Part shown: piece by piece, positions 16,130 through 60,334 of the stretch | How the letters are laid out: the number at the start of each line of letters is the position of its first letter | Numbering within the stretch: position 1 is the stretch's first letter | Origin: Novipirellula artificiosorum | GTDB lineage: Bacteria; Planctomycetota; Planctomycetia; Pirellulales; Pirellulaceae | NCBI RefSeq assembly: GCF_007860135.1 | Contig: NZ_SJPV01000004.1 | Coordinates: forward strand, 186,001 to 250,000 | DNA length: 64,000 nt | Reading direction: 5' to 3' | Notes under the pieces: model-generated | Told to the model about the DNA's origin: nothing | Seen by the model: only the letters and a program-made list of their open reading frames with translations | Databases searched by the model: none | Position numbers and translations under genes: made by a program

Positions 16130-16150
16130 CCCAACGTCCCCCGCTTCAAG

Positions 16151-22232: not shown

Positions 22233-22241
22233 GCGGAATGA

Positions 22242-26212: not shown

Positions 26213-31602
<5,390 letters not shown>

Positions 31603-31654
31603 GCCTCTCAGCAGGCACTTCAGAAGACTCAGCGGATGAACTAGACTTGATTCG

Positions 31655-31671
31655 GTAAGCTGGAAGCTTAC
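31655..31671. repeat. Hairpin in the GH2-GH95 gap
   Basis: GTAAGCT-GGA-AGCTTAC is a perfect 7-bp stem with a 3-nt loop, 50 bp after the GH2 stop. There is no T tract, so it looks more like a REP unit than an intrinsic terminator. Confidence 0.5.
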
Positions 31672-31712
31672 GTCACTTTCCCTCCAAATCATTCCCACCC
31701 CTAAGGTCACGG

Positions 31713-40782: not shown

Positions 40783-40824
40783 GGTCCGTGACTCCTTACG
40801 CGGCTTGATGGGATCGATCGCAAA

Positions 40825-40848
40825 CGGCATTCTAAGCAGAGAATGCCG
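40825..40848. promoter_or_regulatory. Perfect 9-bp inverted repeat, candidate AraC operator
   Basis: CGGCATTCT-AAGCAG-AGAATGCCG, with a 6-nt spacer, lies 43 bp from the AraC start and 109 bp from the isomerase start, in their divergent promoter region. Its place and symmetry suit a regulator binding site. AraC proteins more often bind direct half-sites, so another regulator or a transcript hairpin is possible. Confidence 0.5.
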
Positions 40849-40956
40849 CAAAACAAGGGCTAATTAAATCCCTGCGCCTACGCCGTGTCGTTTAGAATCC
40901 GCATTGGTCGTCAAGCATTGATTCGGGAAACCCTTAGCGGATTGAGTGAGGGACAG

Positions 40957-42480
40957 ATGACAACTCAAGAGCCCATCAAGAATTCCATACGCCCGCGCAT
41001 CGGATTGTACTCGGTGGGGCACGCCCATTATTGGGATCAGTTCAAGGGGCTGCGGGATCGGCTGCTGGGCTACAACCGTTTTGTGGCTCAGCGGATGTCA
41101 GCCTGGGGTGAGGTTTGTAACGTCGGAATGATCGACGGCGAGAGCCATGCGCGGGGGGCAGCTGAGGATTTGCGTGCGGCAAATGTCGATCTGATCTTTT
41201 GTCATGCCGCAACCTACGCAATGAGCGCCTCGCATCTGCAGATCGCGAAACACTGCGGCCGGCCCGTGGTCGTGTTGAATCTGCAACCGGCAGCGTCCAT
41301 GAACTACGAACAGACAACCACCGGTGAATGGTTGGCACATTGTGTTGGATGTTGTGTTCCGGAAATCTCGAATGCTTTCAATCGAAATGGTATCGATTTC
41401 CACCTGGTGTCGGGGCTCTTGGGACTAGAACAGACACCCGCCATTTCGTTGGCCTGTGAGGAAACAGCCGGTCATCCCGAAGCGATCGCAGCATGGAAAG
41501 AGATTCATCGCTGGATCAAGGCAGCGGGTGTGGCGCGTACGTTGCGTGAAGGTCGAATGGGTTTTCTCGGCCACACCTATCCGGGGATGTTGGACATGTA
41601 CAGCGACTTCACGATGATCACGGCCCAGACCGGCATGCACGTCGAAATCTTGGAAATGTGCGATCTGGCGAAACTGGCCGAGTCGGTGACGGAGGCCGAG
41701 ATACGCGAGAAACGAGATCAGGTGAAGGAGATGTTCCTGGTCAGTGAAGACTCACCGTCGGATCCTCTCGCGCGGAAGCCGCAGCCGGAACAATTGGACG
41801 TTGCATGTCGGGTCGCGGTCGCGCAAGAGAAGATGGTTCGCGAGTTCGACCTGGACGCCCTGACCTACTACTACCGCGGCCGCGACGGTAACCCGTACGA
41901 GCAACTCCAGGAAGCGTTCATTTTGGGGCACTCCCTACTGACCGCACAAGGAATCCCCTGCAGTGGCGAAGGTGACATGAAGACGGCCATCGCGATGAAG
42001 ATTTGCGACATCTTAGGCGTTGGCGGTAGCTACAGCGAAATGGTCGCAGCGGACTATGACCGCGGCACCCTGATCCTCGGCCACGACGGACCGTTCCATA
42101 TCGCCATCGCCGACGGCAAGCCGATCTTGCGTGGGATGGGACTGTACCACGGCAAATGGGGGACGGGCGTCAGCGTCGAAGCAACCGTCCGCAAAGGTCC
42201 GGTCACGCTATTAAACTTGACTCAAACCGGCGACGGCAAGTTGCGTTTGATTGCCAATCAAGGCGAGGCCATCGAAGCGCCCATCTTGAAAATCGGCAAT
42301 ACGATGACGCACGTCAAGTTCGCCCAAGGTCCGACGCAGACGATGAACCAGTGGTTTGCCATGGCTCCCACACACCATGCCGCCATGAGTGTGGGTCACA
42401 ACATGGCAGACCTGAGCCGAGTTGCAACGATGATGGAGATCCCCTTCGACACCGTCGCCATTTCATCCGAGACGACTTGA
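40957..42480 (+). CDS. L-arabinose/L-fucose isomerase-like protein, 507 aa
   Basis: GAGGGACAG precedes the ATG at 40957 (MTTQEPIKNSIRPRIGLYSV). The protein aligns in style with L-arabinose isomerases: GLYSVGHAHYWDQF start, then metal-site residues Glu338 (CSGEGDMKTA), Glu361 (SYSEMVAADY), His376 (ILGHDGPFH) and His473/474 (APTHHAAMS). These match the E-E-H-H set that binds Mn2+ in AraA. It has no signal peptide, so it acts in the cytoplasm, interconverting an aldose and a ketose. With GH29, GH95 and GH106 nearby, L-fucose, L-rhamnose or a galactose-type substrate is as likely as arabinose; the sequence does not decide. Confidence 0.85.
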   Translation: MTTQEPIKNSIRPRIGLYSVGHAHYWDQFKGLRDRLLGYNRFVAQRMSAWGEVCNVGMIDGESHARGAAEDLRAANVDLIFCHAATYAMSASHLQIAKHCGRPVVVLNLQPAASMNYEQTTTGEWLAHCVGCCVPEISNAFNRNGIDFHLVSGLLGLEQTPAISLACEETAGHPEAIAAWKEIHRWIKAAGVARTLREGRMGFLGHTYPGMLDMYSDFTMITAQTGMHVEILEMCDLAKLAESVTEAEIREKRDQVKEMFLVSEDSPSDPLARKPQPEQLDVACRVAVAQEKMVREFDLDALTYYYRGRDGNPYEQLQEAFILGHSLLTAQGIPCSGEGDMKTAIAMKICDILGVGGSYSEMVAADYDRGTLILGHDGPFHIAIADGKPILRGMGLYHGKWGTGVSVEATVRKGPVTLLNLTQTGDGKLRLIANQGEAIEAPILKIGNTMTHVKFAQGPTQTMNQWFAMAPTHHAAMSVGHNMADLSRVATMMEIPFDTVAISSETT

Positions 42481-42558
42481 GCAAACCATCCGAGATCGAT
42501 CCATTCACAAAGTGATGAAACACCTTTTCCGGTTAAGCATCCGAGAGGAGCAAGACAA

Positions 42559-45500
42559 ATGACGATGATGAGAGCCATGATCAGTATCCTGGTGCTGCAA
42601 TCCGCGTTGTCCGTATTCGGTGCCGATGATCCTTTAGAGCGGCAGTTCCGAGAACTGCCCATGGAAGCACGGCGGCTGACCGGCCCCCTGTTCTGGATGC
42701 ATGGCGACGACAACGAGACACCACAGCGACTCGAAGCGTACGTCGAAAAGGTCGCCGAGGGGGGCAACGGCTGCTTCACCGCGGAGTCACGTCCGCATAG
42801 CGATTGGCTGGGACCCCGCTGGTACAAGGACCTTGATGTCTGTTTACAGAAAGCCAAGCAGCTCGATCTAAAGATGTGGATCTTTGACGAGAAGTGGTGG
42901 CCTAGCCAATCGATCGGTGGCACGGTCCCACCCCGTTATGCGGCAAAAACCCTGGTGGCCGAGGCCGTGGACATCACAGGCCCCATGGTATTCGAGGCCG
43001 ACGGATACAACGGCGAACGCTACATCGCGGCGGTGGCCGGGCGTCGGAATGCGAAACAGGAAATCGAAGGTGAAAGTCTGCTTGACTTGGCTCCCTTCAT
43101 CACCGACGGCAAGCTCACTTGGAACGCGCCGGCCGGCAATTGGAAAATGATCAAGTTCACGCACCAACAGGCGCCTGGTCTTGGACAACGCGGCGGCAAG
43201 GAACTCAGTGTGGACGGGGCGAGCCGGGATTGCACCGACTGGTTCCTCCAAACGGTCTATCAGCCGCATTACGATCACTTCAAGGGCGACTTCGGCAAGG
43301 CCATTCCTGGGTTCTTCTATGACGAACCGGAGACGAAGGGGGATTGGGGAAGCGAGCTCAATGTGATCCTTCACGAATGGGGTGTTGATTGGAAGAAGGC
43401 TTACGTGGCCTACAAGTTCAAACTTGCCGGCGACGACGATCTTGCAGCCCGCTACCAATACATGGAGGCCATTGCCGAGGCTTGGGGCCGTGTCATGTAT
43501 GGCGGCATGACCCAGTGGTGCCATGAACATGATGTCGTCTCGATCGGCCACTTCATGGAGCAAGGGTACCTCTATCTGCGCCCGGACTATTGTGCCGGCG
43601 ATATGATGCGGTTGCAGAAATACAGCGACATGGGCGGAATCGATCTGGTGGTTCGGCAAATGTATCCTGGCCAGCGGCCACACGACATCTACCAAACGCC
43701 CAAACTCGGTAGCTCCATCTCACACGTCTACGGCAAGCAGGATGATGTTGCCATGTGCGAGATCTTCGGTGGATACAATCAAGTCCTGACCTATCCGCAG
43801 ATGAAATGGCTGACGGACCAGCACCAAATCCGCGGCATCAACTTCATGATCCCGCATTCGTTTAATCCGAAAGCACCGAACGATCGCGACTACCCCCCCT
43901 ACTTCTACAACGACGGACAGGAACCACGATGGCCACTCTATCGTGTCTATGCCGACTACACGAGCCGGCTGAGTCTAATGCTGACCGGCGGTAGGCACGT
44001 TTGCCCCGTTGCCATCTTGTTCAGCGGCAACGCGAAGCGTGTCGGCAACTATGTGACGCCCGAAGACATGACCACGGTCCTGCAAGACGCGCTCTACGAT
44101 TGCGACTGGTTGCCATTTGAAGCGTTCGAGGCGGATGCCACCTTGGACGGCAAGCATGTCAACCTGCACCAGGAACGTTACCAGGTCCTGATCGTGCCGC
44201 CAACGGAAGTCATTCCCTACGCCACCTTGGCGAAGGCGAAGGCGTTCTTCGACCAGGGCGGCGTGGTCATCGGCTATGGTCAGCTGCCGACGAAATCGGG
44301 CAGCGTCGGCCAACCCTCATCAGAGATCATGAAACTCCGCCGCGCCATCTGGGGAAGCGATACGCAACCGGGTACGACGGCCTGTCGTACAAACGACGCC
44401 GGTGGTAGGTCCTATTTTCTGCCAGAAAAACCAGACGTGAACTCGATTTCCGCGGCTCTCCACCAAGATGCCGGCATCCCACCGGTCGTCGAGGTCCTCG
44501 AAGGCGAAACCAACAACTGGCTGCATGTTCTGCACCGCGTGAAGGAGGGGAAGGACGTCTTTTTGATCTGCAACCAGGACCACCAGAACGAGGCCAAGAC
44601 GTTCCGCTTGAAGGTCACTGCCGACGGGTTCCCCGAAGTCTGGGATGCCATGCGTAATGACATCACCTCCGTGGCCTTCAAACGCACGGGAAAGACGGTT
44701 GAGTTTCCTCTGCGTCTTGAGCCGATGGAGAGCATCTTGCTTGTATTTCATCCAGACCGGCGAGTTCTGCCTGCGAGAATCGAGGGCGATCTACTTCGTT
44801 CAGGGACGCCCATTGTAGTGAAAAGCGATTCAGCCCCCGTGTCGAAAAAAGCGGAAGCGAAAGAGAATCTTAATTGGTTGGCGGCAAGCTCATGGGTTTG
44901 GTTTCCGGAAGCCAATCCGCCCGCCGCCACCCGGTATTTCCGCAAGGCACTGACCTTGCCTGAGAGTGGCAAAATACGAAGAGCCGTCTTCACCCTGACC
45001 GCGGACAATTTTTTCGCTCTGTATGTCAATGGACAGGAGGCCGGAAAGAGCCAGGGGGATATCGACAATTGGAGAAGTTGGAAGAAGATCGACGTCACCC
45101 CGTATCTCAAGCCGGGCGCCAATTTGGTGGCGATCTCTGCGGTCAACGGGGGCACGGACCCCAATCCGGCCGGGATCCTGGGCCGCTTGCTGGTTGAGTT
45201 CGAAAACGGTGAGGCCGTTTCCGTATTGGTCGACGAGAGTTGGAAGACGACGAAGGAGAAACAGTCGGGCTGGGAAACAACCGCACTGGATGATCGCGGC
45301 TGGTTGGCGGCAGCACCGGTTGCGAGTTATGGGGAAGGTCCCTGGGGTCGTTTTGCTGGAGCCAAGGCCAACCTCGTCGTGGCGACACCCTTTTCAGGCA
45401 CCTGCGACGTACCGGGCGGGGTCGATCTGAGCACAGCACGTGTCTTTCTTGAAATGGATGAACTGAGGCAAGCAGAAGAGGCGGCGCGTGTGACGGTCAA

Positions 45501-45648
45501 TGGCCAGTATGCGGGCGGCGTGATTGGCAGACCCTACCGGCTCGACGTCACCCGATATCTCCAACATGGCGAGAACAAGGTCCTCATCGAACCTTTCTCG
45601 CCCAACTCAGTTCACCTGGTTGTCCGGGGAAAGAAAGAAGCAAAGTGA
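42559..45648 (+). CDS. GH106-like alpha-L-rhamnosidase A, 1029 aa
   Basis: GAGGAG precedes the ATG at 42559. The signal peptide ends near SVFGA. The GH106 N-terminal region starts with LERQFRELPMEARRLTGPLF and has KMWIFDEKWWPSQSIGGTVP; the barrel contains GFFYDEPETKGDWG and SIGHFMEQGYLYLRPDY. The Rossmann-like part has GGRHVCPVAILFSGN and VLIVPPTEVIPYATL. After residue about 760 comes an extra beta-sandwich module (SWVWFPEANPPAATRYFRKA, FALYVNGQEAGKSQG) like the N-domain of GH78 rhamnosidases. GH106 enzymes release alpha-L-rhamnose. The gene lies 78 bp after the isomerase. Confidence 0.85.
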   Translation: MTMMRAMISILVLQSALSVFGADDPLERQFRELPMEARRLTGPLFWMHGDDNETPQRLEAYVEKVAEGGNGCFTAESRPHSDWLGPRWYKDLDVCLQKAKQLDLKMWIFDEKWWPSQSIGGTVPPRYAAKTLVAEAVDITGPMVFEADGYNGERYIAAVAGRRNAKQEIEGESLLDLAPFITDGKLTWNAPAGNWKMIKFTHQQAPGLGQRGGKELSVDGASRDCTDWFLQTVYQPHYDHFKGDFGKAIPGFFYDEPETKGDWGSELNVILHEWGVDWKKAYVAYKFKLAGDDDLAARYQYMEAIAEAWGRVMYGGMTQWCHEHDVVSIGHFMEQGYLYLRPDYCAGDMMRLQKYSDMGGIDLVVRQMYPGQRPHDIYQTPKLGSSISHVYGKQDDVAMCEIFGGYNQVLTYPQMKWLTDQHQIRGINFMIPHSFNPKAPNDRDYPPYFYNDGQEPRWPLYRVYADYTSRLSLMLTGGRHVCPVAILFSGNAKRVGNYVTPEDMTTVLQDALYDCDWLPFEAFEADATLDGKHVNLHQERYQVLIVPPTEVIPYATLAKAKAFFDQGGVVIGYGQLPTKSGSVGQPSSEIMKLRRAIWGSDTQPGTTACRTNDAGGRSYFLPEKPDVNSISAALHQDAGIPPVVEVLEGETNNWLHVLHRVKEGKDVFLICNQDHQNEAKTFRLKVTADGFPEVWDAMRNDITSVAFKRTGKTVEFPLRLEPMESILLVFHPDRRVLPARIEGDLLRSGTPIVVKSDSAPVSKKAEAKENLNWLAASSWVWFPEANPPAATRYFRKALTLPESGKIRRAVFTLTADNFFALYVNGQEAGKSQGDIDNWRSWKKIDVTPYLKPGANLVAISAVNGGTDPNPAGILGRLLVEFENGEAVSVLVDESWKTTKEKQSGWETTALDDRGWLAAAPVASYGEGPWGRFAGAKANLVVATPFSGTCDVPGGVDLSTARVFLEMDELRQAEEAARVTVNGQYAGGVIGRPYRLDVTRYLQHGENKVLIEPFSPNSVHLVVRGKKEAK

Positions 45649-45770
45649 TCACGATGAGCAAGGCGGAAAACTGGAAGAAAACGGTCACTCCGTTCCCGGA
45701 TCGAAGGGACGGAGCCCCAAGACTTTCGGCAATGACAAATCACCAGGGAAACCACACACGAAGAGACTTA

Positions 45771-48026
45771 ATGAGGCCATTGCAATTTTTCATTTTGATC
45801 CTTTCACTCCTGGGGACGATGCTCCGTGGTTCTGCTGAGGAACCTGGCCGTTTGGAAAGGGATTTCAAGGATCCACCTGTGACGCTCAAGAGCATTCCTT
45901 TGTGGCATATGAACGGCGAACTCACCACAAAGGAGATCGTTTCTCAACTGGAGTCGTCTCGAAACGTCAGTGGATTCGGTGGCGTTGCAGTGTTGCCGGT
46001 TAGGCATACCAAACCGGAGTACTTGACGAACGATTATTTTGCTCGTTACGGAGACATTCTCGAAACCAGCAAGAGGCTTGGAATGAGTGTTGTCTTCTAT
46101 GACGACATCGGCTTCCCTAGTGGTTCGGCGGGCGGTCGGATGAAGGAGCAATTCCCAAAGGATGTGTCCTATCGTCTGGAAAAGAAAGAGTGGGACGTCG
46201 AAGGACCATGCGATTGGACTCAGCCGATCCCTGAAGGCACTTTCATGGGCGGCGTGGCGCTGAATCTTGATTCTTGGCAGAGACTGGATCTCATCGATGC
46301 GGCGAGCGACGGGAGGATTTCTTGGCAAGTTCCCGCAGGGGAATGGAAGTTGATGATCTTCACCTGTGTCAACGCTGGCGATCGAGTGGATTACCTCAAC
46401 CCCGACTCCGTCGACCGATTTCTCTCACTGACCTACGACCAGTATTACAAGCGTTTCCCGAACCACTTTGGTTCGACCATCACGATGAGTTTTTTTGATG
46501 ATATCAGTATTCGTCGTTGGGGAGGAACCGAGTGGACGCCTCGATTTAACGAGCGGTTCGAAAAGCGGTATGGGTACAATCCCGTCACTTTGTATCCTGC
46601 GTTGTGGCATGACATTGGGCCGGATACCGCGTCGGCCCGTATCGCACTTCACGATTTCCGAGCGGACCTTTTAGCCGAAGGCTATCCGCGGCAAGTCAAC
46701 GAGTGGTGTTCGGCGCATCGTATTCGTAGCACCGGTCACGCGGCGGGGCAGTACCATCCTCAACCTTCCTTTTTGACGGGCGATCAGATTAAGTTCTATC
46801 GCCACTGCGATATCCCAATGATCGATTCGATCCACTACTACGGACATGGTCGACCAGGATTCAAGCTGACCAGTTCCGCCTCGTACAGCTATGATCGCCC
46901 GCTGACAGCGGTTGAGATTTACGGAAACTACAAAGCTTTCGATAAGCAAACGCTCTATCGTTCTGGGATGGAACTGTTTGCACGCGGAGCCAATTTCTTT
47001 TTGCCGCACGGCATGTGGTACGATTCGGAAACGGTTCGAATTCCTCCGCTGATCTCGCACTTTTCCGACGAAATCGGCCCAGAGCTTGGCCCCTACAACG
47101 ATTGGTCGGCACGCTCAAGTTTACTGCTGCGCGGGGGGCGTCATGTTTCCGACATCGGAGTGCTGTACCCCGTGGCGACCATGCAGGCGTACGCACAGTT
47201 TGGAAAAGAGGAGCAAAAGCATCCTGGGTTGCGGAAGCCTGAGACTACGGATTTCAACCGGCTGAGCGATCTGCTGACCGGCGATATTCGACGTGACTTT
47301 ACGTTTCTTCATCCACACATTCTGGACGAGAAATGCCGAGTCGATGGTGCAACGCTGCATTTGGAGAACAAGATTAATTTTGAGCAGTACTCTGTCCTGA
47401 TCATTCCTGCCGTGAACGTGATCCATTGGAGCAATCTTGAGAAAATCCGAAAGTTCTATGAAGCAGGCGGAGTGGTGATTGGCACCACTGAGTTACCAAC
47501 GCAGTCGGCCGAGTCAGGTCACGATGATGATGTTCGAGAAACAATTGCAGCGATTTTCTCCACTGCGTCAGCGAATGAACACGGCTATGCCAAGAGAACG
47601 AACGAGGCGGGAGGAACTTCCTACTTTGTCCCTTCGCTCGACAAACACGGATCGGCCTTGGCAGCCGCCTTGCAAGATGCGATGCCGGTCGCGGATGTTC
47701 GCTTTGGCCAAGATGCGCCACAACTGGAGCATTTACCCCAGAGCGGCAGCCAGCCTCCCGCGAATAAGAAGCATACCGGCATGCTCTCCTACATTCACAA
47801 GATCAAGGACGACCACAATCTCTACTACTTCGCAAATTCGACGGATGGTCCTATCGAGTTGGATGTCGTTTTACGCGGGCAATTAAGCTTGCAATCTTGG
47901 AATCCCCACGACGGTCACATCACGGATGTCGATCATGCGACGGTGATTGACCATGGCGTAGCTTGCACGAAGGTGCGTTTGAAAATGAAACCGGTTCAAT
48001 CCGTGTTCTTTGTCGAGAAGAGGTGA
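45771..48026 (+). CDS. GH106-like protein B without C-terminal sandwich, 751 aa
   Basis: The start is chosen at ATG 45771 (MRPLQFFILILSLLGTMLRG), where the signal peptide begins. ATG 45732 would add NHTRRDLMRP, which gives a Tat-like RR motif, and the frame is open to 45645. The family core begins LERDFKDPPVTLKSIPLWHM and has FYDDIGFPSGSAGG, FFDDISIRRWGGTEWTPRFN and RSTGHAAGQYHPQPSFLTGD. It ends KMKPVQSVFFVEKR, just after the Rossmann-like domain, so it lacks the roughly 150-residue beta-sandwich tail seen in its two downstream paralogues. The substrate may differ from rhamnose. Confidence 0.82.
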   Translation: MRPLQFFILILSLLGTMLRGSAEEPGRLERDFKDPPVTLKSIPLWHMNGELTTKEIVSQLESSRNVSGFGGVAVLPVRHTKPEYLTNDYFARYGDILETSKRLGMSVVFYDDIGFPSGSAGGRMKEQFPKDVSYRLEKKEWDVEGPCDWTQPIPEGTFMGGVALNLDSWQRLDLIDAASDGRISWQVPAGEWKLMIFTCVNAGDRVDYLNPDSVDRFLSLTYDQYYKRFPNHFGSTITMSFFDDISIRRWGGTEWTPRFNERFEKRYGYNPVTLYPALWHDIGPDTASARIALHDFRADLLAEGYPRQVNEWCSAHRIRSTGHAAGQYHPQPSFLTGDQIKFYRHCDIPMIDSIHYYGHGRPGFKLTSSASYSYDRPLTAVEIYGNYKAFDKQTLYRSGMELFARGANFFLPHGMWYDSETVRIPPLISHFSDEIGPELGPYNDWSARSSLLLRGGRHVSDIGVLYPVATMQAYAQFGKEEQKHPGLRKPETTDFNRLSDLLTGDIRRDFTFLHPHILDEKCRVDGATLHLENKINFEQYSVLIIPAVNVIHWSNLEKIRKFYEAGGVVIGTTELPTQSAESGHDDDVRETIAAIFSTASANEHGYAKRTNEAGGTSYFVPSLDKHGSALAAALQDAMPVADVRFGQDAPQLEHLPQSGSQPPANKKHTGMLSYIHKIKDDHNLYYFANSTDGPIELDVVLRGQLSLQSWNPHDGHITDVDHATVIDHGVACTKVRLKMKPVQSVFFVEKR

Positions 48027-48139
48027 CTCTCAGGGCAACTCACTGTTCGAAGTTGAGATTTGTGCCCCTGACAACTCCGACGGAGATCGCAGAGAGGTTT
48101 TCCGTTTGGCGTAAGGCACCACAAACGAAAGAAAAATCG

Positions 48140-51100
48140 ATGACCAAATACCCATTGCCGCTCACCCAGCTGCTCCTTTTCCTTGTGACATCTTCCCCAG
48201 CCAATGGCGTGGATCTCGAGGACGAGTTCAAGAATCCGCCCGACGCGGCGCGGCCGGGGGTCTACTGGTATTTCATGGACGGAAATCTTGATCGCGAAGC
48301 GATGACCAAGGACCTCGAGTCAATGAAGGAAGCTGGAATCGGCAATTTGATCTTCCTCGAAGTCAACGTTGGCGTTCCGCGTGGGCCAGTCGATTTCATG
48401 AGCGAGCCGTGGCAAGACTTGTTTGTCCACGCCGTCCGTGAAGCCGAGCGTTTGGAAATCGACATCACGCTGGGCAGTGGTCCCGGTTGGAGTGGCAGCG
48501 GAGGTCCGTGGAATCGACCAGAAAACTCAATGCAACATCTTGTCTATAGCGAGACCGATGTCAGTGGCCCCAGCACGTTGGACCAGGTCTTGCCGATTCC
48601 CAAGCAGCGGACCGGTCCTTTTCATAAAACGCTCGATGACTGGTTCGAAGACGTTGTGGTTTTAGCGATCCCAAAGTCCGCGCCGGTCATTGATGACCTC
48701 GATCGCAAAGCGTTGTATTTGCGAAACCCCTTTTCGATTTGGCGAGGCGGCGAATCCCAAGCTTACGTGGATCCGCCGATCGCCAATGGCAAGGGATCAA
48801 CGGATGCGATTCCGATCAACCGAGTCGTCAACCTGACGGACCAAATGGACAAGGACGGTCGGCTCAAATGGCAAGTTCTCAATGGCGATTGGACAATTTT
48901 GCGAATGGCTCGGCGGATCACCGGTTCAAGCTCGCGTCCAGCGCCCGAATCAGGGCTCGGGTTGGAGTGCGACAAGTTCGATGCCACCGCGCTCGACCAT
49001 CACTACGCAAACTATTGCGGGAAATTGATTGAACGAATCAACCGGCAAGCACCCTCCATTCGGGAGTCGGAGCATGGGCTGACGACGCTTCACATCGATA
49101 GCTGGGAAATGGGATCACAGAATTGGACGGATCACTTTGCCAAGGAGTTTCAGAATGTTTGCGGTTACGACCCCACTCTCTACTTGCCCGCCTACGCAGG
49201 ACGTGCCGTGGCCAGCGAAGCGATCGCCGAGCGTTTTCTATGGGACATGCGTCAAGTCTCGCAAGAACTGATTCTTCGCAACCATGCGGGACACCTGAAA
49301 AAGCTGGCACGCCGCGATGGGTTAACGCTTTCCATTGAACCTTACGATATGAACCCGGCAAGCGACCTGGATCTCGGCGCGGTTGCAGATGTTCCGATGT
49401 GCGAGTTTTGGGCACTCGGCTTCTACGATACGACGTACAGTTGCGTTGAAGCGACCTCGATTGCTCATGTCTTGGGAAAACCGATCGTCGCAGCAGAGGC
49501 CTTCACCGGCCGGACACAGTATCGCGAGCATCCTTGGTCGATGAAGTCGATGACCGACTGGGCGTTTTGCATGGGGATCAATCGACTGGTCTATCACACC
49601 TTTGCCCACAAACCACTTGGCGACGATTTTCGCCCCGGTATGACGATGGGGCCTTATGGAACGCACTGGGATCGTGGCCAGACCTTCTGGCCGATGGTGG
49701 GGGACTATCACCAGTACGTGTCGCGATGTTCCCATCTCCTTCGCCAAGGCACCGGCGTCGCGGACATTTTGTATCTGACGCCCGAGGGGGTTCCGCACAT
49801 CTTCCGTCCACCCCATACAGCACTCGATGGGACCGACGTCTTGGCCGACGGACGCGGCTTTCGTTTTGACGGCTGCTCACCGAAGATGCTGATCGAACGA
49901 GCCGAAGTGCGCGGGAAACGAATCGCATTTCGTAATGACGAGGGGGGCTATGGAACGGAGTATCGCATCATGGTTTTGCCGCTGATCGAATCGATGACGC
50001 CGAAGTTGCTGGCCAAAATCGAATCGCTCATCGCCGATGGCGCGACGGTGATTGGCTTGCCACCGCGGCGCTCGCCGAGTCTGGTCGGCTTTCCCCACTG
50101 CGACGAAGAAGTCAAATCGCTGGCCACGAAGATTTGGGGTGGATTGGATGCACCGGAAACAACCACATCGATCGCCTATGGCAAGGGGACGCTGGTTTGG
50201 GGCGGCACGTCAACGACGCCGCTGCCAAGCTTGAATCAGGGCGAACGTACGGAGAAACCAACTCAATATCCCGACTATGCTTCCACGGCCACGATTCTGG
50301 ACTCGTTCGGTTTGGCCGAAGATTTTGCATCGGATCATCCGGTGCGTTTTATCCATCGGCGTGATTCGCAGCGTGACATCTACTTCGTTGCCAATCAAAC
50401 GAGCGAGACGATTCATCCGACGATGAAGTTTCGCACCCTCGCGAATGCCGGAAAGGCACCGATGCGGTGGGATCCGCTAACCGGCGAAACGCGACCGTTG
50501 GTGTTCACTTCCCATGAGGATCACACGACGATCGAGCTAACCTTTGCACCACGCCAAAGTTTCTTTATCGTCTTTGCGAAGACCGGGGCGGACTTACCCG
50601 TTGCATCCAAAACGAATCTGATCCGTAGCGAAACTCTCGATGAAGTTTCCGGTCCTTGGAACGTGGCGTTCAATCCCAAGTGGGGCGGTCCAGACGACGT
50701 CGTGTTTGATGCGCTTCAAGATTGGACGGAGCGTCCCGAACCCGGCATCCGATATTACTCGGGCATCGCAACGTATCGAAACTCGTTCAACTATGATCCT
50801 GCGAATCAGCCGTCTGAGAAAATCTATCTCGACTTGGGCACCGTCCATGACATCGCCCGGGTGCGACTCAACGGCGAAGACTTGGGCGTTGTTTGGTGTG
50901 CCCCTTGGCGAGTTGATCTGTCCTCGGCGGTTTCGCCGGGCAGCAACCGATTAGAAATCGAGGTGGCCAATCGCTGGCGAAACCGTTTGATCGGCGACAG
51001 ATTACCCGAAAATGCAAAGATGCGGACGGTGCAGTGGGATTCGGGTCTTCTCGGAGGTGAACCGTACAAGACTGGCCGCTACACCTTCTCAACCTTGCTT

Positions 51101-51187
51101 GGCCAGTTGCGTGCAAAGGAACCTGAGCCCTCCGGACTTTTGGGGCCAGTCCGTTTGGTACAAGACCGGGAACTTGACGGTAGGTAA
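48140..51187 (+). CDS. GH106-like alpha-L-rhamnosidase C, 1015 aa
   Basis: The signal peptide starts at ATG 48140 (MTKYPLPLTQLLLFLVTSS). The upstream frame overlapping gene B is rejected. The core has LEDEFKNPPDAARPGVYWYF, LGSGPGWSGSGGPWNRPENS, LHIDSWEMGSQNWTDHFAKE and a full-length tail (ATYRNSFNYDP, RVRLNGEDLGVVWCAPWRVD, LEIEVANRWRNRLIGD), ending LLGPVRLVQ. This is the standard GH106 layout, as in Bacteroides rhamnosidases of pectin and ulvan systems. Only a weak GAAAGAAA precedes the start; translation may be coupled to gene B, 113 bp upstream. Confidence 0.87.
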   Translation: MTKYPLPLTQLLLFLVTSSPANGVDLEDEFKNPPDAARPGVYWYFMDGNLDREAMTKDLESMKEAGIGNLIFLEVNVGVPRGPVDFMSEPWQDLFVHAVREAERLEIDITLGSGPGWSGSGGPWNRPENSMQHLVYSETDVSGPSTLDQVLPIPKQRTGPFHKTLDDWFEDVVVLAIPKSAPVIDDLDRKALYLRNPFSIWRGGESQAYVDPPIANGKGSTDAIPINRVVNLTDQMDKDGRLKWQVLNGDWTILRMARRITGSSSRPAPESGLGLECDKFDATALDHHYANYCGKLIERINRQAPSIRESEHGLTTLHIDSWEMGSQNWTDHFAKEFQNVCGYDPTLYLPAYAGRAVASEAIAERFLWDMRQVSQELILRNHAGHLKKLARRDGLTLSIEPYDMNPASDLDLGAVADVPMCEFWALGFYDTTYSCVEATSIAHVLGKPIVAAEAFTGRTQYREHPWSMKSMTDWAFCMGINRLVYHTFAHKPLGDDFRPGMTMGPYGTHWDRGQTFWPMVGDYHQYVSRCSHLLRQGTGVADILYLTPEGVPHIFRPPHTALDGTDVLADGRGFRFDGCSPKMLIERAEVRGKRIAFRNDEGGYGTEYRIMVLPLIESMTPKLLAKIESLIADGATVIGLPPRRSPSLVGFPHCDEEVKSLATKIWGGLDAPETTTSIAYGKGTLVWGGTSTTPLPSLNQGERTEKPTQYPDYASTATILDSFGLAEDFASDHPVRFIHRRDSQRDIYFVANQTSETIHPTMKFRTLANAGKAPMRWDPLTGETRPLVFTSHEDHTTIELTFAPRQSFFIVFAKTGADLPVASKTNLIRSETLDEVSGPWNVAFNPKWGGPDDVVFDALQDWTERPEPGIRYYSGIATYRNSFNYDPANQPSEKIYLDLGTVHDIARVRLNGEDLGVVWCAPWRVDLSSAVSPGSNRLEIEVANRWRNRLIGDRLPENAKMRTVQWDSGLLGGEPYKTGRYTFSTLLGQLRAKEPEPSGLLGPVRLVQDRELDGR

Positions 51188-51352
51188 GTGCGATTTCACC
51201 AGGACGACAAAAGATCTTTCAAGTGGCCGGCCAAAAGAAAGTAATACAATCATCCTCAAGACGGGTAACACGACGCAATGTCAAGAGACGGCAACACGGA
51301 TGGGCATACACTTCATGACAAGATCAGATCTACAAGAAAAGGAAACCAACGG

Positions 51353-54300
51353 ATGCGAATCGTTCTTGCATCGATCTCTCTCGTAGCGTTTTGTTTGATT
51401 TGTTCCGCCGTAACGGCGGACGAGTGGGAGGCGGGGTTTCGAAGTCCGCCGCACAGCGCGGGGATCCGCGCCTTCTGGTGGTGGCTCAACAGCAATGTCA
51501 CGAAGGAGGCCATTTCCCGTGACTTGGAGGAAATGAAAGCCAAGGGTTTCGGCGGAGCGTTGATTTTCGACGCCGACGGCAGCGATCAACGCGGGAATCG
51601 CAAAGTCCCCGCCGGTCCGGTGTTTGCATCTCCCGAATGGACGGAGCTGTTTGTGCACGCTTGCCAAGAGGCAAAGCGTTTGGATCTTGAACTGAGCCTG
51701 AATATCCAAAGCGGCTGGAATCTGGGTGGACCGAACGTGACGGCGGAAGAGGCGACACAAACGCTCGTTTGGTCAAAGACCGAGGTTGTGGGGCCGGTGG
51801 CTTTTGAAAAGACGCTATCAGCTCCCAAATCGCGAGTGTTCTACGAGGACGTGGCCGTGATTGCGATTCCCATTCCAGACATGCAAACAGGCACATCGAC
51901 AGCCGCAAGTGCGCAAAGAGGGTGCGTGCTCCTGGCCAGCTCATCGCAGCAAAATAGGCCTGTGGAATTCGCGATGGATCGGGATCCCGCGACCTTTTGG
52001 GTATCGGACAAGGGGCCTGACCTTGACAACCCCCAATGGCTGCTGCTGACGTTGTCCGAGCCGACAGAAATCTCGGCGTTGCTGTTGCAGGGTCGCCCGG
52101 GATATGGGCCGCGCGAATGCACGATCGAAGTCTCCTTGGACAATCGAACGTTTCGCACGATCCAAGATGCCTCGCTGCAGGACGGCGAAGCACTCAATCT
52201 GAGCTTTGAACCGCAGCAGGCAAAGTTTGTCAGGCTTCTCTTCACAAGTTCGTACGATGTCAACCCCGTCCGAGGCAAACCCCGCAATGTCCAGGTTTCA
52301 GAGATCTCGCTCGCTGGGATTGGAATCCCATCCCCGCCAGCCTTTCGTCCGATAAAAGACCTGAACCTCAAGGATGCTACACGGGAACTCGGCGGCTCGG
52401 CGCCCGATTGCCGCTTCCTGCTAGAGACGGATCCCGCGCTGGATGGTGAAGTCGCGGTAAGAAGCAGCGAGATTCGCAACCTCTCCGCAAAGATGGACGA
52501 CGAGGGAGTGCTTCGATGGGACGTTCCCAAGGGGCATTGGGTGATCTTGCGGATCGGACACACCGACACCGGCGCGCATGTTTCGACTCAGAGCAACGGA
52601 TGGGCCGGCCGCGTGCTGGACTACATGAACCCGGATTCGCTTGACGCCTATTGGACTCGGAATCTTGAGCAGGTGTTTCGGGCGATCGGCCCTCTCGCTG
52701 GCACGACGCTGCGCTACGTCCACACTGACAGCTGGGAAGGCGGCGGAATGAACTGGACGCGGGGTTTTGATCAGACGTTTCAGCGCAATCGCGGCTATGA
52801 CCCACTTCCCTGGCTGGCGGTTCTTGCGGGATACGTCGTCGATAGCCGTGAAGACTCGAACGCCTTCCTCGCCGATTTTCGCAAGACCATCGGTGACCGA
52901 GTCGCGGAGCATTACGCTCACTTGGCCGAACGGGCACGCGACCATGGGATGGCGACGCATCCCGAGTGTTCTGGCCCGCATGCAGGACCACTGGACGGAA
53001 TGAAGAACTATGGCCGTAGCGAGCTGATGATGAGCGAGTTCTGGTCACCGTCACCGCATCGCCCCAAAGCGACCAATCGATTTTTCGTCAAGCAAGCCTC
53101 ATCCGCCGCACACACCTATGGCAAACAACTCGTTGGCGCGGAAGGCTTCACCACGATCGGCCCACACTGGAACGACTCGCCATCGGCACACATGAAGCCG
53201 AGCTTTGATCACGAGTTTTGTGCGGGTTTGAATCTACTGTTCACCCACACCTTCACCTGCTCGCCAAAAGAGATGGGGATCCCCGGCCAGGAGTACTTCG
53301 CAGGTACCCATTTCAATCCTCAGGTGACTTGGTGGGACGATGCACCGACGGTGATTGACTATTTTAGGCGTTGTCAGTACTTGGCCCAGCAAGCTGACTT
53401 CGTAGCCGATGTGGTTTACTACTACGGTGATCACATCCCGAACATTGCGACGTTGAAAGAATCGGATCCGGCCGGCGCGCTGCCCGGCTATGATTATGAT
53501 GTCATCAGCGAGGAATCCTTGTTGTCGAGCTTGACGGTCGAGAAGGGACGGCTCAAGCTTCCATCGGGCATGGAGTATCGCGTACTGGTTCTGCCCGACC
53601 ATCGCGTTTTGTCGCTGGGCGCAATCACCAAGGTGGACGAGTTGGTTCGCGGCGGGGCCACGGTCCTTGGGCCCAAGCCGGTGCGTGCCGTAAGCCTTGA
53701 AGGGGGCGCGGATGGCAAGCAGCGCTACGAGAAGCTCGCGGACGGACTCTGGGGGACGACGGACCCAATCGACGACTCGAAAGGCAGTCGCAGGGTTGGC
53801 ACCGGGCGCGTGGTCTGGGGGATGCCGGCTCGCGATTTGCTAACAGCGGATGGCATCGCTGAAGACGTCGATTTTCTAGATGAAAGTTCTGCGTCCGCAA
53901 TCCATTGGATCCATTACCAAATCGGCGATGCAGATGTTTATTTTCTGTCCGAAGCAAATGGCGAGGCTGTCCGCGCGGATGTGCTGTTCCGTTGCGATGG
54001 CCGAGTTCCCGAACTCTGGGACGCGGTCGATGGATCGGTACAAGACGCCCGTACCTTCAAGTTCGTCGATGGGCGCACCCACGTGCCTTTGCAGTTCGAT
54101 GCCTACGGCAGCATCTTCGTCGTCTTCCGAAAGGCATCCTCGGGTGACCGAAGTTTGGGTCCGAACTTCCCGATCTACAGGACGACGCAATCGATTTCGG
54201 GTCCGTGGGACGTCACGTTCGATGCAAAATGGGGTGGTCCAAAGAAGCCCGTCCGCTTCGAGAAGCTGATGAGTTGGACCGAGCATCGCGACCCAGGGAT

Positions 54301-54673
54301 CAAGTTCTACTCTGGCAAGGCGGTGTACCGGACGACTTTCCATATGCAGAGCAATTCGACGGGCGCACCGTTCGCCATCGAGCTCGGTCAGATCAAGGAT
54401 ATCGGCATCGCCAGGGTGAAGCTGAACGGAACCGATCTCGGCGTGGTTTGGCGACCACCCTTCCGGCTGGACATATCCAAGGCCGCGAAGTCCGGCAATA
54501 ATGAATTGGAAATCGAGGTGGTCAACTCGTGGCGCAACCGCTTGATTGGCGATCAAGCATTGCCCGAGGACCAACGCCTGACGAAGACCAATGTCAGCGT
54601 CACACCACAGTGGCAGTTGGAGCCCTCGGGGCTTCTGGGTCCCGTTCATCTTCAAACCATCGAAACACCATAA
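51353..54673 (+). CDS. GH106-like alpha-L-rhamnosidase D with inserted discoidin domain, 1106 aa
   Basis: AAGGAAA lies upstream of the ATG at 51353 (MRIVLASISLVAFCLICSAV). The N-terminal core has AGIRAFWWWLNSNVTKEAIS and LSLNIQSGWNLGGPNVTAEE. Residues about 190-320 are an extra F5/8 type C-like domain (AMDRDPATFWVSDKGPD, LLLQGRPGYGPRECTIEVSL, KFVRLLFTSSYD). The barrel then resumes with YVHTDSWEGGGMNWTRGFDQ and THPECSGPHAGPLDGMKNYG, and the tail has VKLNGTDLGVVWRPPFRLDI and NSWRNRLIGD. Discoidin domains bind sugars, so the insertion may target the enzyme to polymer. Last of four GH106-like genes; a sulfatase follows 72 bp later. Confidence 0.87.
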   Translation: MRIVLASISLVAFCLICSAVTADEWEAGFRSPPHSAGIRAFWWWLNSNVTKEAISRDLEEMKAKGFGGALIFDADGSDQRGNRKVPAGPVFASPEWTELFVHACQEAKRLDLELSLNIQSGWNLGGPNVTAEEATQTLVWSKTEVVGPVAFEKTLSAPKSRVFYEDVAVIAIPIPDMQTGTSTAASAQRGCVLLASSSQQNRPVEFAMDRDPATFWVSDKGPDLDNPQWLLLTLSEPTEISALLLQGRPGYGPRECTIEVSLDNRTFRTIQDASLQDGEALNLSFEPQQAKFVRLLFTSSYDVNPVRGKPRNVQVSEISLAGIGIPSPPAFRPIKDLNLKDATRELGGSAPDCRFLLETDPALDGEVAVRSSEIRNLSAKMDDEGVLRWDVPKGHWVILRIGHTDTGAHVSTQSNGWAGRVLDYMNPDSLDAYWTRNLEQVFRAIGPLAGTTLRYVHTDSWEGGGMNWTRGFDQTFQRNRGYDPLPWLAVLAGYVVDSREDSNAFLADFRKTIGDRVAEHYAHLAERARDHGMATHPECSGPHAGPLDGMKNYGRSELMMSEFWSPSPHRPKATNRFFVKQASSAAHTYGKQLVGAEGFTTIGPHWNDSPSAHMKPSFDHEFCAGLNLLFTHTFTCSPKEMGIPGQEYFAGTHFNPQVTWWDDAPTVIDYFRRCQYLAQQADFVADVVYYYGDHIPNIATLKESDPAGALPGYDYDVISEESLLSSLTVEKGRLKLPSGMEYRVLVLPDHRVLSLGAITKVDELVRGGATVLGPKPVRAVSLEGGADGKQRYEKLADGLWGTTDPIDDSKGSRRVGTGRVVWGMPARDLLTADGIAEDVDFLDESSASAIHWIHYQIGDADVYFLSEANGEAVRADVLFRCDGRVPELWDAVDGSVQDARTFKFVDGRTHVPLQFDAYGSIFVVFRKASSGDRSLGPNFPIYRTTQSISGPWDVTFDAKWGGPKKPVRFEKLMSWTEHRDPGIKFYSGKAVYRTTFHMQSNSTGAPFAIELGQIKDIGIARVKLNGTDLGVVWRPPFRLDISKAAKSGNNELEIEVVNSWRNRLIGDQALPEDQRLTKTNVSVTPQWQLEPSGLLGPVHLQTIETP

Positions 54674-54745
54674 ATCCGGTCGAACGATTTCAATCGGCAT
54701 CGTTCAAAAGGATCACAAAGAAGTCGTCTCAACAGGAATATAGAC

Positions 54746-56245
54746 ATGACCCGAAAATACTCATCCAGATTGACCGCCGCGTGGATTCTTGTTCTTGCCG
54801 CGGCCTTCACACATGCAGCGGATGACCCGATCGGCAAGCCCAATGTCATTTTCTTGATGGACGACCAGCACCGTTGGGACACATTGGGAAGAGTGAACTC
54901 GATCGTCAAGACGCCCAACCTAGACGCCCTCGCCCAATCGGGCGTTTTTTACGATCAAGCCGTCTGCCAAGCGCCCATGTGTATCCCTAGTCGCAACTCG
55001 ATGATGCTGGGGTTGTATCCCAACCAAACAGGCGTTCTTCGCAACGGGCGCGGTATACCGGACGGGCAACTGCCCTCGCAGCCCCTACCCGAATTGTTCC
55101 GAGATGCCGGATATCAGACCGCCGGTTTCGGCAAGACACATTGGGGAGTGACCTGTTCCACTCGTGGTTTCGAAACCCGCTACATCGGCGAGTGTCTGGA
55201 AAAAGACGCTGTCATGATGATCGATGACGCTCCGGACGCAAAAAAGCGATACGATTCCGAAAGCCACACGATGGGCGCAGGCGAGGAGAACAATCTTGGG
55301 TACCTCGGGTTCACCAGCCAGCTGCCGGAGCTGGAACATCGTGATGGCTGGGTAACGGGCAAATGTTTGGACTTCATCGACAGCAAACTCGACCCTGAGC
55401 GTCCTTTGTTTCTCTACCTGTCTTTCCTCAAGCCACACGCGGGTCACAACGTCCCCGCCGGATATGAGAAGCAATACCGCTTAGATCAAGTCGAATACGC
55501 CAAACAGCCGCCATGGACGGAAGACCGCTCTCCCCATGCCGCCGGTGTCAACCGACGCGATCTGTACGTTGACTATTGGGGGAAAGCGACCGATGAGCAG
55601 TGGCGGTTGATGACCATGCGTTACCGAGCCAACTGCACGTGGATCGACGATATGTTCGGAAGGGTGTTGAGGGAGCTGGAGCGAAAAGGTGTCCTTGACA
55701 ACGCCCTGATTGTCTACTGCTCCGATCATGGCGAAATGCTCGGCGAACGCTTCTATCGGTTCAACAAGTACTGCCTCTATGAGTCCAGCGTTCGCGTACC
55801 ACTGATCCTGTCGGGCTCCGCGATTCCCGAGGAACTGCAAGGCAAGACCGACCATCGTCCGGCCGAGCTGGTCGACCTCTACCCCACTGTACTTGGCGCT
55901 GCGGGCATCACGATTCCGCAGCAGGCGGTTGGGATGAACCTGTTGGGCAAGGAGAGAAGGCCTGCGTCATTCTCCTCGTTGCACGAGCGCGGCAACGAGG
56001 CCGCTTTCATGTGGCGAACCGCTGACTACAAACTCATCCTTCGAATGAAACGCAGGGCAGACGACAATGCGTGCATGTATACGGCTGCCGATATCATCGG
56101 CGGCGAGTTCTACAACTTGGCCGAAGACCCTCAGGAGTGGTACGATCTGTATCCAGACCTTGCGGCGTCGCGGAACCCTCGCGAAACCATGACAAGGGAA
56201 TTGCTGAAGTTTCTCAAGTCTCAACGCACAATCACTCGTCCTTAA
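54746..56245 (+). CDS. Type I sulfatase, 499 aa
   Basis: AGGAA precedes the ATG, and the signal peptide ends near FTHAA. KPNVIFLMDDQHRWDTLGRV gives the metal-site Asp pair. The formylglycine motif is CIPSR at Cys79 (QAPMCIPSRNSMMLGLYPNQ). YCSDHGEMLGERFYRFNKYC is the second metal-site region; in this branch DHGEMLGE replaces the DNGG form. The stop is 11 nt before the next sulfatase start, so the pair is surely co-transcribed. It should remove sulfate from oligosaccharides made by the GH106 enzymes; that is inference from position. Confidence 0.93.
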   Translation: MTRKYSSRLTAAWILVLAAAFTHAADDPIGKPNVIFLMDDQHRWDTLGRVNSIVKTPNLDALAQSGVFYDQAVCQAPMCIPSRNSMMLGLYPNQTGVLRNGRGIPDGQLPSQPLPELFRDAGYQTAGFGKTHWGVTCSTRGFETRYIGECLEKDAVMMIDDAPDAKKRYDSESHTMGAGEENNLGYLGFTSQLPELEHRDGWVTGKCLDFIDSKLDPERPLFLYLSFLKPHAGHNVPAGYEKQYRLDQVEYAKQPPWTEDRSPHAAGVNRRDLYVDYWGKATDEQWRLMTMRYRANCTWIDDMFGRVLRELERKGVLDNALIVYCSDHGEMLGERFYRFNKYCLYESSVRVPLILSGSAIPEELQGKTDHRPAELVDLYPTVLGAAGITIPQQAVGMNLLGKERRPASFSSLHERGNEAAFMWRTADYKLILRMKRRADDNACMYTAADIIGGEFYNLAEDPQEWYDLYPDLAASRNPRETMTRELLKFLKSQRTITRP

Positions 56246-56256
56246 GGAAGCATCGA

Positions 56257-57774
56257 ATGGAAAACGATTCCCTGTCCAGACGCCCGTTTTTGCACCGTTG
56301 TTTGTTGTACGGGACGGCACTGACGCTGAGCCTGGGGATGTCGCTTCCGTGTAGGGGAAAACCGACATCCAAACCGAACATTGTCTTTGTGCTGACGGAC
56401 CAGTGGCGAGCTCAGGCCACTGGCTATGCCGGTGACCCCAATGTGAAGACGCCGAATTTGGATGCCTTGGCCGCCGAGAGCATCCATTTTGAAAACACGG
56501 TTTCTGTCTGCCCCGTCTGCACCCCGTACCGCGCCTCGCTGATGACCGGTCGCTATCCGCTCAGCACGGGAATGTTCTTGAACGATCTCTACTTGCCAGC
56601 CGAGGAGTTGTGCATGGCCGAGATTCTCAACAAAGTCGGTTACGAAACGGGCTACATTGGCAAATGGCACCTCGACGGACATGGCCGTGACGTCTTCATT
56701 CCCCGCGAGCGACGCCAGGGCTTTGACTATTGGAAAGTTCTCGAGTGCACGCACCAATACAACGACTCCTGCTACTACGCAGGCGATGACCCGACCCTCC
56801 GAAAGTGGAATGGCTATGACGCCTATGCCCAAACGAAGGACGCCCAGGACTACATCCGAAGCCATGCCCAAGCCGACGATCCCTTTCTCTTGATGGTGGC
56901 CTATGGTGGCCCCCACTTTCCTCATCACTCCGCGCCGCAGGAACTCAAACAATGGTATCCGGTTGATGGGATCAAGTTACGTCCAAACGTACCGGAACAG
57001 GGGCAGGACAGGGCCGCGAAAGAGGCGCAGGGTTACTACGCCCATTGCTCCGCGCTTGACCGTTGCGTCGGAGAACTGCTCAAGACCCTGTCCGAGACCG
57101 GTGAAGCCGAGAACACGATCTTCGTCTTTACATCCGACCATGGTGAAATGCTTGGCTCGCAGGGGCAACCCTCCTATGAGAAGCAGCGTCCGTGGGATGA
57201 GTCGATACGCGTTCCGCTGCTGGTCCGTTATCCGTTGCTTGCTGGCCACGACGGAAAGTCGGTAAAAACGCCGGTTAACACTCCTGATCTTTTGCCGACG
57301 TTGCTGTCGCTCGCTGGTGTCGCGATTCCGGATACGATTGAAGGAGAGGATCTATCACGGTTGATCCAGGACAACAAGACCGATGAAGATCGGGCCGCCC
57401 TGGTCATGTCGGTGTCTCCCTTCGCCGGATACTCAGGCGGCAAGGAATTTAGAGCGATACGCACCGCACGATACACCTATGTCTGCGATCAGGACGGCCC
57501 CTGGCTGATGTACGACAACCAAATGGATCCGTACCAGATGAACAACCTGATTGGCGATGCTGACCATGTCCGTTTGCAGGCAGAACTGAACGACAAACTG
57601 CAATCGAAACTCAAGCAAACAGGCGATCTATTTTTCCCCAAGCATCACTACCTGATGGAGTGGGGATATTCGGTGGATGATCGAGGCTGCATACCGTACT
57701 TTTACCAACACTCCAGGCAAGCCAAGAAGCCGGAAGACTTCAAGGTGCAGAGCCCCGCGAACAAACCCAAATGA
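56257..57774 (+). CDS. Type I sulfatase with Tat-type signal, 505 aa
   Basis: AAGGAAG lies 8 nt before the ATG at 56257. The N-terminus MENDSLSRRPFLHRCLLYGT carries a twin-arginine motif (S-R-R-P-F-L), unlike the Sec-type signals of the other sulfatases, so it may be exported folded. NIVFVLTDQWRAQATGYAGD follows. The formylglycine motif is CTPYR at Cys88, then ASLMTGRYPLSTGMF. TSDHGEMLGSQGQPSYEKQR is the second metal-site motif shared with the preceding sulfatase. If formylglycine is made in the cytoplasm before Tat export, this has consequences for its maturation. Confidence 0.93.
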   Translation: MENDSLSRRPFLHRCLLYGTALTLSLGMSLPCRGKPTSKPNIVFVLTDQWRAQATGYAGDPNVKTPNLDALAAESIHFENTVSVCPVCTPYRASLMTGRYPLSTGMFLNDLYLPAEELCMAEILNKVGYETGYIGKWHLDGHGRDVFIPRERRQGFDYWKVLECTHQYNDSCYYAGDDPTLRKWNGYDAYAQTKDAQDYIRSHAQADDPFLLMVAYGGPHFPHHSAPQELKQWYPVDGIKLRPNVPEQGQDRAAKEAQGYYAHCSALDRCVGELLKTLSETGEAENTIFVFTSDHGEMLGSQGQPSYEKQRPWDESIRVPLLVRYPLLAGHDGKSVKTPVNTPDLLPTLLSLAGVAIPDTIEGEDLSRLIQDNKTDEDRAALVMSVSPFAGYSGGKEFRAIRTARYTYVCDQDGPWLMYDNQMDPYQMNNLIGDADHVRLQAELNDKLQSKLKQTGDLFFPKHHYLMEWGYSVDDRGCIPYFYQHSRQAKKPEDFKVQSPANKPK

Positions 57775-60131: not shown

Positions 60132-60334
60132 CCGTCTGCTCCAGGTTGATCGAGTCTTCATGGGGTCGCTGTCACGCTTCCACCAGCTGCTTTCCAGTGG
60201 TCCGTCCTACCCCAATTCTAAGCTCTGACAAAGCACCAGTGTATCGAATGGTGATGCCACCGGGAGCAACAACACAAACGATTCCCTTAGCGGTAGAATG
60301 AAACGCCGATCTCAAACACGGAACCCAACACAGA

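Follow-up and report, generated by a model that had tools for sequence, protein, structure and literature searches.

A candidate L-rhamnose catabolic cluster with four GH106 genes, two sulfatases and an AraA-fold sugar isomerase in Novipirellula artificiosorum

Background

Contig 4 of the 9.2-Mb genome of Novipirellula artificiosorum (Pirellulaceae) carries, at bases 186001-250000, the 64,000-nucleotide stretch analysed here and called the window. Within it, a sugar isomerase gene, four genes of glycoside hydrolase family 106 (GH106_1 to GH106_4) and two sulfatase genes follow one another, beside a divergent gene for an AraC-family regulator. Which polymer would such a set of enzymes degrade, and which sugar would the isomerase convert? 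Our reading, to which we give a probability of about 0.7, is that these genes form a catabolic cluster under AraC control, directed at the L-rhamnose of a sulfated polysaccharide that contains this sugar. Gene order, protein families, active-site residues, fold and neighbourhoods were read from the sequence, and the proposals on secretion, substrate, co-regulation and the sugar of the isomerase are drawn from them. Published work is cited by PMC number, for the passages available.

The gene cluster and its relatives

A sequence-only reading of this stretch had described the isomerase, the four GH106 enzymes and the two sulfatases as co-oriented at 40957-57774, and Pfam matches above the curated cut-offs confirm it, on the plus strand; for PF17132 the cut-off is 29 bits and the GH106 proteins score 99-545 bits. 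The AraC gene included in the same row is indeed present, but it lies on the minus strand, divergent from the isomerase. With likely starts picked from the translations, the intergenic gaps from the isomerase to the second sulfatase are about 10-170 bases. Once the likely start is chosen, the translations of all four GH106 proteins and both sulfatases open with a hydrophobic leader, and no signal peptide or hydrophobic leader was seen in that of the isomerase. The genome has about ten GH106 genes and one fragment (13 rows, with two genes split over two rows each), and the presence of four of these genes within 12 kb exceeds chance. Sulfatases of the S1 type share the maturation motif Cys-x-Pro-x-Arg, which was found together with a PF00884 match above cut-off in the three sulfatases inspected (38184, 54746 and 56257). 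As the genome is rich in sulfatases (at least 150, from 150 of 324 candidates scored), two of them side by side carry less weight alone. Four rhamnosidases together with sulfatases point to a sulfated, rhamnose-containing glycan.

The neighbourhoods of the isomerase in other genomes point to the same sugar. Of 259 isomerase relatives, from one genome per species, the best 80 (58-81% identical) provide the named loci. These come from many Firmicutes and from Planctomycetota, Hydrogenedentota, Armatimonadetes and Verrucomicrobia, and some of them end at contig ends. Neighbouring proteins were clustered and the families named by Pfam. Recurrent neighbours are the L-rhamnose mutarotase RhaM, the rhamnose symporter RhaT, RhaA, an FGGY kinase, a RhaEW-type aldolase-dehydrogenase fusion, GH106 and GH78, a sugar-binding protein, two-component regulators and AraC regulators. 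With profiles partly built from the counted loci themselves, at least one L-rhamnose gene was found near the isomerase in 52 of the 80 loci: RhaM in 27, GH106 in 14 (15 by a second count), RhaT in 13, RhaEW in six, GH78 in four and RhaA in three. A GH106-type gene adjoins the isomerase in the Pirellulaceae genome PLA7, two Rhodopirellula, a metagenome-assembled genome (MAG) of Hydrogenedentota, another of Armatimonadetes, and several Firmicutes. In Rhodopirellula sallentina and R. rubra an AraC gene stands beside RhaT-GH106-isomerase, the regulator being 62-63% identical to that of the window (63% over 314 residues in R. sallentina) and the GH106 protein 63% identical to GH106_4.

Two further genomes have modules of similar composition. 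In a congener (locus L122 of genome G087), GH78-sulfatase-GH10 is followed by a minus-strand AraC gene and then by isomerase paralogue-GH78-sulfatase-GH106-sulfatase. Here the isomerase paralogue is 41% identical to the isomerase of the window, a sulfatase 76% to the one at 54746, and the GH106 protein 49% to GH106_3. In Paenibacillus hemerocallicola a minus-strand AraC gene precedes isomerase-GH78-solute-binding protein-sulfatase-GH106. On the strength of the isomerase neighbourhoods and of these two modules, we interpret the cluster as most probably a rhamnose module for a sulfated rhamnose-containing glycan. In PLA7, the isomerase and a relative of GH106_1 (78% identity) are on different contigs; ahead of this relative, on its strand, come a sulfatase gene and one resembling GH106_3. 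Among 119 genomes of the family, the one analysed here included, relatives of GH106_1 occur in five and of GH106_2 in three (E 1e-60). A synteny survey had been proposed in the sequence-only reading; neither the exact set nor conserved synteny of the whole set was found in the relatives examined. A module that recurs with exchanged parts fits the remark that operon-like clusters of one planctomycete are often heterophyletic (PMC4807772). At another fetched locus (L132, 2656-5712) a DUF4062, NACHT and formylglycine-generating-enzyme-like protein lies beside a GH106-sulfatase cluster.

In the same 119 genomes, the isomerase or a paralogue is present in 10 and GH106 in 17, and all 10 fall within the 17 (Fisher test, 1.8e-10, relatedness uncorrected). 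Six of the ten (G087, G007, G024, G041, G060 and G064) have relatives of at most 44% identity only, and the match in G064 is weak (27%). Six of the seven paralogous-isomerase loci of the family are without scored rhamnose genes, and the seventh, that of the congener, has GH106 and GH78. A second paralogous clade (L139-L143), about 37-39% identical to the isomerase of the window, has no scored rhamnose genes around it.

Identity of the isomerase

The Pfam matches of the isomerase are weak and split between fucose and arabinose isomerase domains. The protein is not RhaA, since it has no PF06134 match and the single RhaA of the genome lies elsewhere, nor RhaI, since TIGR02635 is not among its NCBIfam matches and has none in the genome. 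It scores 54 bits against the AraA model NF002795 (cut-off 622) and 39 bits against SftI (cut-off 700), and no fitting equivalog was found in NCBIfam. An AlphaFold2 model from 38 sequences (mean pLDDT, the predicted local distance difference test score, 90.3) resembles L-arabinose isomerases most closely, with Z scores of 32.0-34.4 over 452-462 residues; for AraA (4f2d) the values are Z 33.6 and 2.8 Å over 457 residues. L-fucose and D-arabinose isomerases follow at Z 26.5-27.4, and the next structure listed is at Z 9.9. In the 4f2d alignment E306, E333, H350 and H450, which we take to be the metal and catalytic residues of Escherichia coli AraA, correspond to E338, E361, H376 and H474, and these four are invariant across 36 sequences, six paralogues among them. 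This AraA-like fold and the invariant active-site residues make it very likely that the protein works as a metal-dependent isomerase between an aldose and a ketose. No description of its clade was found in the literature searched (mostly outside subscription journals), in the available passages of PMC3870299 or in NCBIfam, and a literature search linking COG2407 to rhamnose returned no paper.

Does this protein replace one of the known L-rhamnose isomerases? The passages available of PMC3870299 describe the L-rhamnose pathway as RhaA/RhaI-RhaB-RhaD/EW-RhaM-RhaT under AraC, DeoR or LacI control, and the isomerase of the relatives adjoins RhaM, RhaT, a RhaEW-type gene, RhaA or AraC. RhaA and RhaI are named there as two isomerase types, whereas the isomerase of the window is neither. 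In 49 isomerase genomes chosen from the 80 named loci, RhaA was found in 33, which rules out a simple RhaA substitute. Among the 16 genomes lacking RhaA, RhaI is above the cut-off in 12, below it in one (G148, 493 bits), and neither isomerase was found in three (G125, G127 and G129, where RhaI matches are weak or none). When 18 genomes were searched for rhamnulokinase, these three gave no strong match, but neither did G126 and G128, two genomes with RhaA and RhaI. At a size of just 1.2 Mb, one of G125, G127 and G129 may be incomplete.

Because most isomerase genomes keep RhaA or RhaI, the isomerase would mostly supplement the standard pathway, perhaps as an inducible isozyme, perhaps as an enzyme for a rhamnose variant. 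We tentatively propose, with the odds still somewhat against it, that the protein represents a third, unrecognised isomerase type in deoxy-sugar catabolism of Planctomycetota, Hydrogenedentota, Verrucomicrobiota and Firmicutes, coupled to GH106/GH78. Given the retention of RhaA or RhaI in most genomes, it may act on a polymer-borne rhamnose variant (e.g. an O-methylated or epimeric 6-deoxy-L-hexose), and in the three MAGs in which neither RhaA nor RhaI was found it is perhaps the sole rhamnose isomerase.

The GH106 proteins

GH106_4 aligns with the solved structures 6q2f and 5mqm. Positions of BT_0986 were counted on the 5mqm alignment, the active-site columns being labelled in 6q2f numbering and the row of L128, an antisense frame, left out. 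In BT_0986, D458 is a metal ligand, E461 the acid and E593 the base (PMC6828813). The alignment retains this Asp/Glu/Glu in GH106_1, GH106_3 and GH106_4. The metal motif of GH106_1 reads DEPE, and its C-terminal domains match GH2/GH78 sugar-binding and lectin domains. GH106_2 keeps the Asp and the base Glu, with Ser at the position of the acid Glu. As the active Ram106B enzymes, with Asp-Glu at their metal motif, are also reported to have no match to the acid (PMC6828813), this Ser is not in itself proof of inactivity. By their PF17132 scores, GH106_3 and GH106_4 are canonical and GH106_1 and GH106_2 distant members of the family. The Ram106B/GH106_dist proteins of Thermotoga, Caldicellulosiruptor and Niabella resemble GH106_1 in their Asp-Glu and GH106_2 in the missing acid position; however, they were proposed to be intracellular (PMC6828813), whereas the GH106 proteins of the window start with hydrophobic leaders and GH106_1 has additional C-terminal domains.

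Organization of the locus and flanking genes

The features of the locus are listed in Table 1. The inverted repeat in the divergent region has perfect 9-base arms and a 6-base spacer, and no other match turns up in the window when up to three mismatches are allowed. A search for it as an operator found its core in none of the fetched loci apart from the window's own copy.

Table 1. Features of the cluster and its surroundings, in window positions
Feature	Positions	Strand	Basis
S1-type sulfatase behind the regulator, CCPSR motif	38184..39701	-	PF00884 163 bits, translation
AraC-family regulator	39826..40782 (ATG 40782; open reading frame to 40851, TTG)	-	PF12833 + PF02311
Divergent intergenic region, 174 bases	40783..40956	.	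perfect 9-base inverted repeat 40825-40848
Sugar isomerase, AraA/FucI fold	40957..42480 (ATG 40957)	+	Fucose_iso_C, AraA_central, Arabinose_Iso_C, 30-33 bits each
GH106_1, distant GH106	42559..45648	+	PF17132 114 bits
GH106_2, distant GH106, likely start near 45771	45645..48026	+	PF17132 99 bits
GH106_3, canonical GH106, likely start near 48140	47963..51187	+	PF17132 531 bits
GH106_4, canonical GH106, inserted F5/8-type domain	51278..54673	+	PF17132 545 bits
S1-type sulfatase, CIPSR motif	54746..56245	+	PF00884 167 bits, translation
S1-type sulfatase, CTPYR motif, likely start 56257 (open reading frame opens 56071)	56257..57774	+	PF00884 195 bits
Flanking sulfatase, convergent	58356..60161	-	PF00884 210 bits
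Flanking sulfatase	60372..61934	+	PF00884 179 bits
Flanking GH95 (second in window)	62073..63962	-	PF22124 545 bits
Neighbouring block: two GH117-like, GH29, ACT-domain, GH32, GH2, GH95, HzsA-like cytochrome protein	20901..38155	+	

The upstream GH117, GH29, GH2 and GH95 genes noted by the sequence-only reading are genuine by their Pfam matches. At 19653-23760 there are three GH43/GH117-type frames, of which one on the minus strand overlaps the start of the next, and the second is closest, among solved structures, to 4u6d and 4u6b. GH117 is expanded across Rhodopirellula, one species having 44 such genes and another 31 (PMC4807772); a literature search for Zg3597 with GH117 found no paper. The block ends on the plus strand (34172-38155) with a protein of 1327 amino acids that matches the hydrazine synthase alpha middle domain and has weak cytochrome and F5/8 matches. 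Relatives of this HzsA-like protein lie near GH106 in L119, L132 and L137 and near an isomerase paralogue in L140. Further upstream, three sulfatases and a PhoD-like phosphatase stand in a row on the minus strand (3-9269), the first frame having 1451 amino acids in the genome and two sulfatase stretches. Between two sulfatase-rich stretches, genes for the beta, delta/epsilon-type, A, B, alpha and gamma subunits of an ATP synthase occupy 12596-19372 on the plus strand, in an order that recalls N-type ATPases.

Alternative explanations

Several observations weigh against the L-rhamnose reading. No scored rhamnose gene was found in 28 of the 80 named isomerase loci, and the genome has its own RhaA, on contig C11, which makes the isomerase dispensable for plain L-rhamnose. 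That RhaA gene lies next to a pyruvate kinase gene, and a scan of seven proteins at this place revealed no second rhamnose gene; the genome also has a rhamnulokinase-like gene (469 bits, under the cut-off of 528) and a RhaE-like aldolase. The 10 family genomes with the isomerase or a paralogue all have GH29 as well, which occurs in 39 of the 119 (Fisher test, 6.0e-6), so the co-occurrence with GH106 partly reflects general glycan degraders, and adjacency is the stronger evidence. Scans for promoter- and terminator-like signals gave results at or below chance. Among 39 frames of the window scanned with Pfam, neither a polysaccharide lyase nor a sugar transporter nor a SusCD pair was seen; a SusC/SusD-like pair defines the polysaccharide utilisation locus of Bacteroidota in the strict sense. 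To these is added the presence of relatives of the window's second GH95, 36-40% identical, in three of the 80 isomerase loci (L071, L096 and L104, all Paenibacillus).

This last observation favours a different explanation, in which all genes from GH117 (about 19.7 kb) up to the second GH95 (64 kb) form a single large locus for one sulfated polymer that contains fucose, galactose and rhamnose. The module is indeed flanked by GH117, GH29, GH32, GH2, GH95 and sulfatases, and rhamnosidases of Verrucomicrobiota have been reported among sulfatases and GH2/GH36 (PMC8857213). However, two minus-strand genes, for a sulfatase and the AraC regulator, separate the upstream block from the module, and this leaves it unproven that the polymer also contains fucose and galactose. 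In addition, tblastn with the window proteins found relatives of GH117, GH32 and GH2 in none of the 130 fetched loci, and the GH29 matches are short or distant (168 residues at 30% identity in L039 and L040) or, in L108 and L117 of the same genome, away from the isomerase. Since GH29 and sulfatase genes are numerous in this genome, chance neighbours are likely, and we regard the single large locus as rather unlikely; a fucosidase-type partner appears possible in some relatives, though not as a regular one. Two other explanations concern the substrate and the isomerase itself. Utilisation of ulvan, the sulfated rhamnose-uronic acid polymer of green algae, would agree with the GH106 and two sulfatases in the ulvan locus of Pseudoalteromonas marina, L-rhamnose being a major component of ulvan (PMC13050008). 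No ulvan lyase or GH105 match was found in the 39 window frames, a search in which Pfam may lack the lyase models and which leaves the genome outside the window unsearched, and an ulvan locus seems unlikely. The isomerase could also be an L-fucose or L-arabinose isomerase present by chance in a cluster that holds merely rhamnosidases and sulfatases. Its Pfam domains and the AraA fold of the model would fit such an enzyme, but the AraA and SftI scores far under their cut-offs and the rhamnose genes around the majority of its relatives (52 of 80) make this quite improbable.

Proposed function and comparison with described systems

Under the L-rhamnose reading, exported sulfatases would remove sulfate esters, and the four exported GH106 enzymes would cut alpha-L-rhamnosyl residues in differing linkages or settings. 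The freed sugar would be taken into the cell, where the cytosolic isomerase would convert L-rhamnose, or a closely related aldose, to the ketose, to be passed to a kinase and an aldolase encoded elsewhere. Candidates for the polymer are ulvan, rhamnan sulfate and a microalgal or cyanobacterial exopolymer. The sequence-only reading had suggested a sulfated polymer rich in 6-deoxy-L-sugars and galactose, degraded together with the upstream block. The co-oriented set and a 6-deoxy-L-sugar are borne out, the latter narrowed to L-rhamnose by GH106 and the isomerase neighbourhoods; action of the upstream block on the same polymer, with its fucose and galactose, is not.

The same reading knew of no described locus with this set, and the exact set was indeed absent from the material searched, but loci combining GH106/GH78 with sulfatases are already published (PMC8857213, PMC13050008). 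In MAGs of Verrucomicrobiota, rhamnosidases are surrounded by sulfatases (PMC8857213). These neighbourhoods, also of the Planctomycetes-Verrucomicrobia-Chlamydiae (PVC) superphylum, are similar in having GH106/GH78 amid sulfatases and an inferred use of sulfated methyl pentoses, and differ in belonging to another phylum, with GH106 in a single orthologous group and at most six rhamnosidases per MAG (PMC8857213). The methyl-pentose isomerases named there are fucI and rhamA, unlike the isomerase of the window. The ulvan locus of Pseudoalteromonas marina PUA1001 likewise has GH106, two sulfatases and sugar isomerases, together with three ulvan lyases and TonB-dependent transport (PMC13050008); the window showed neither of these and has four consecutive GH106 genes. 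Rhamnosidases are also numerous in other genomes: Pontiella strain F1 has 56 rhamnosidase genes, for which its authors suggest rhamnans as substrates (PMC7356697), and MAGs of freshwater Verrucomicrobia are rich in GH29, GH78, GH95 and GH106 (PMC5615132). In view of the Verrucomicrobiota loci and the Pseudoalteromonas ulvan locus, the concept of a rhamnosidase-sulfatase locus is already known; the combination of four GH106 genes with such an isomerase is a new arrangement, and the isomerase clade is its least explained part.

Conclusions

Sulfated glycans rich in rhamnose or fucose are hard to degrade and are considered a possible carbon sink (PMC8857213), an idea that becomes testable once the genes that release rhamnose are known. 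The isomerase clade offers both a marker and an assayable enzyme, and could fill an unexplained step of deoxy-sugar catabolism well beyond the planctomycetes.

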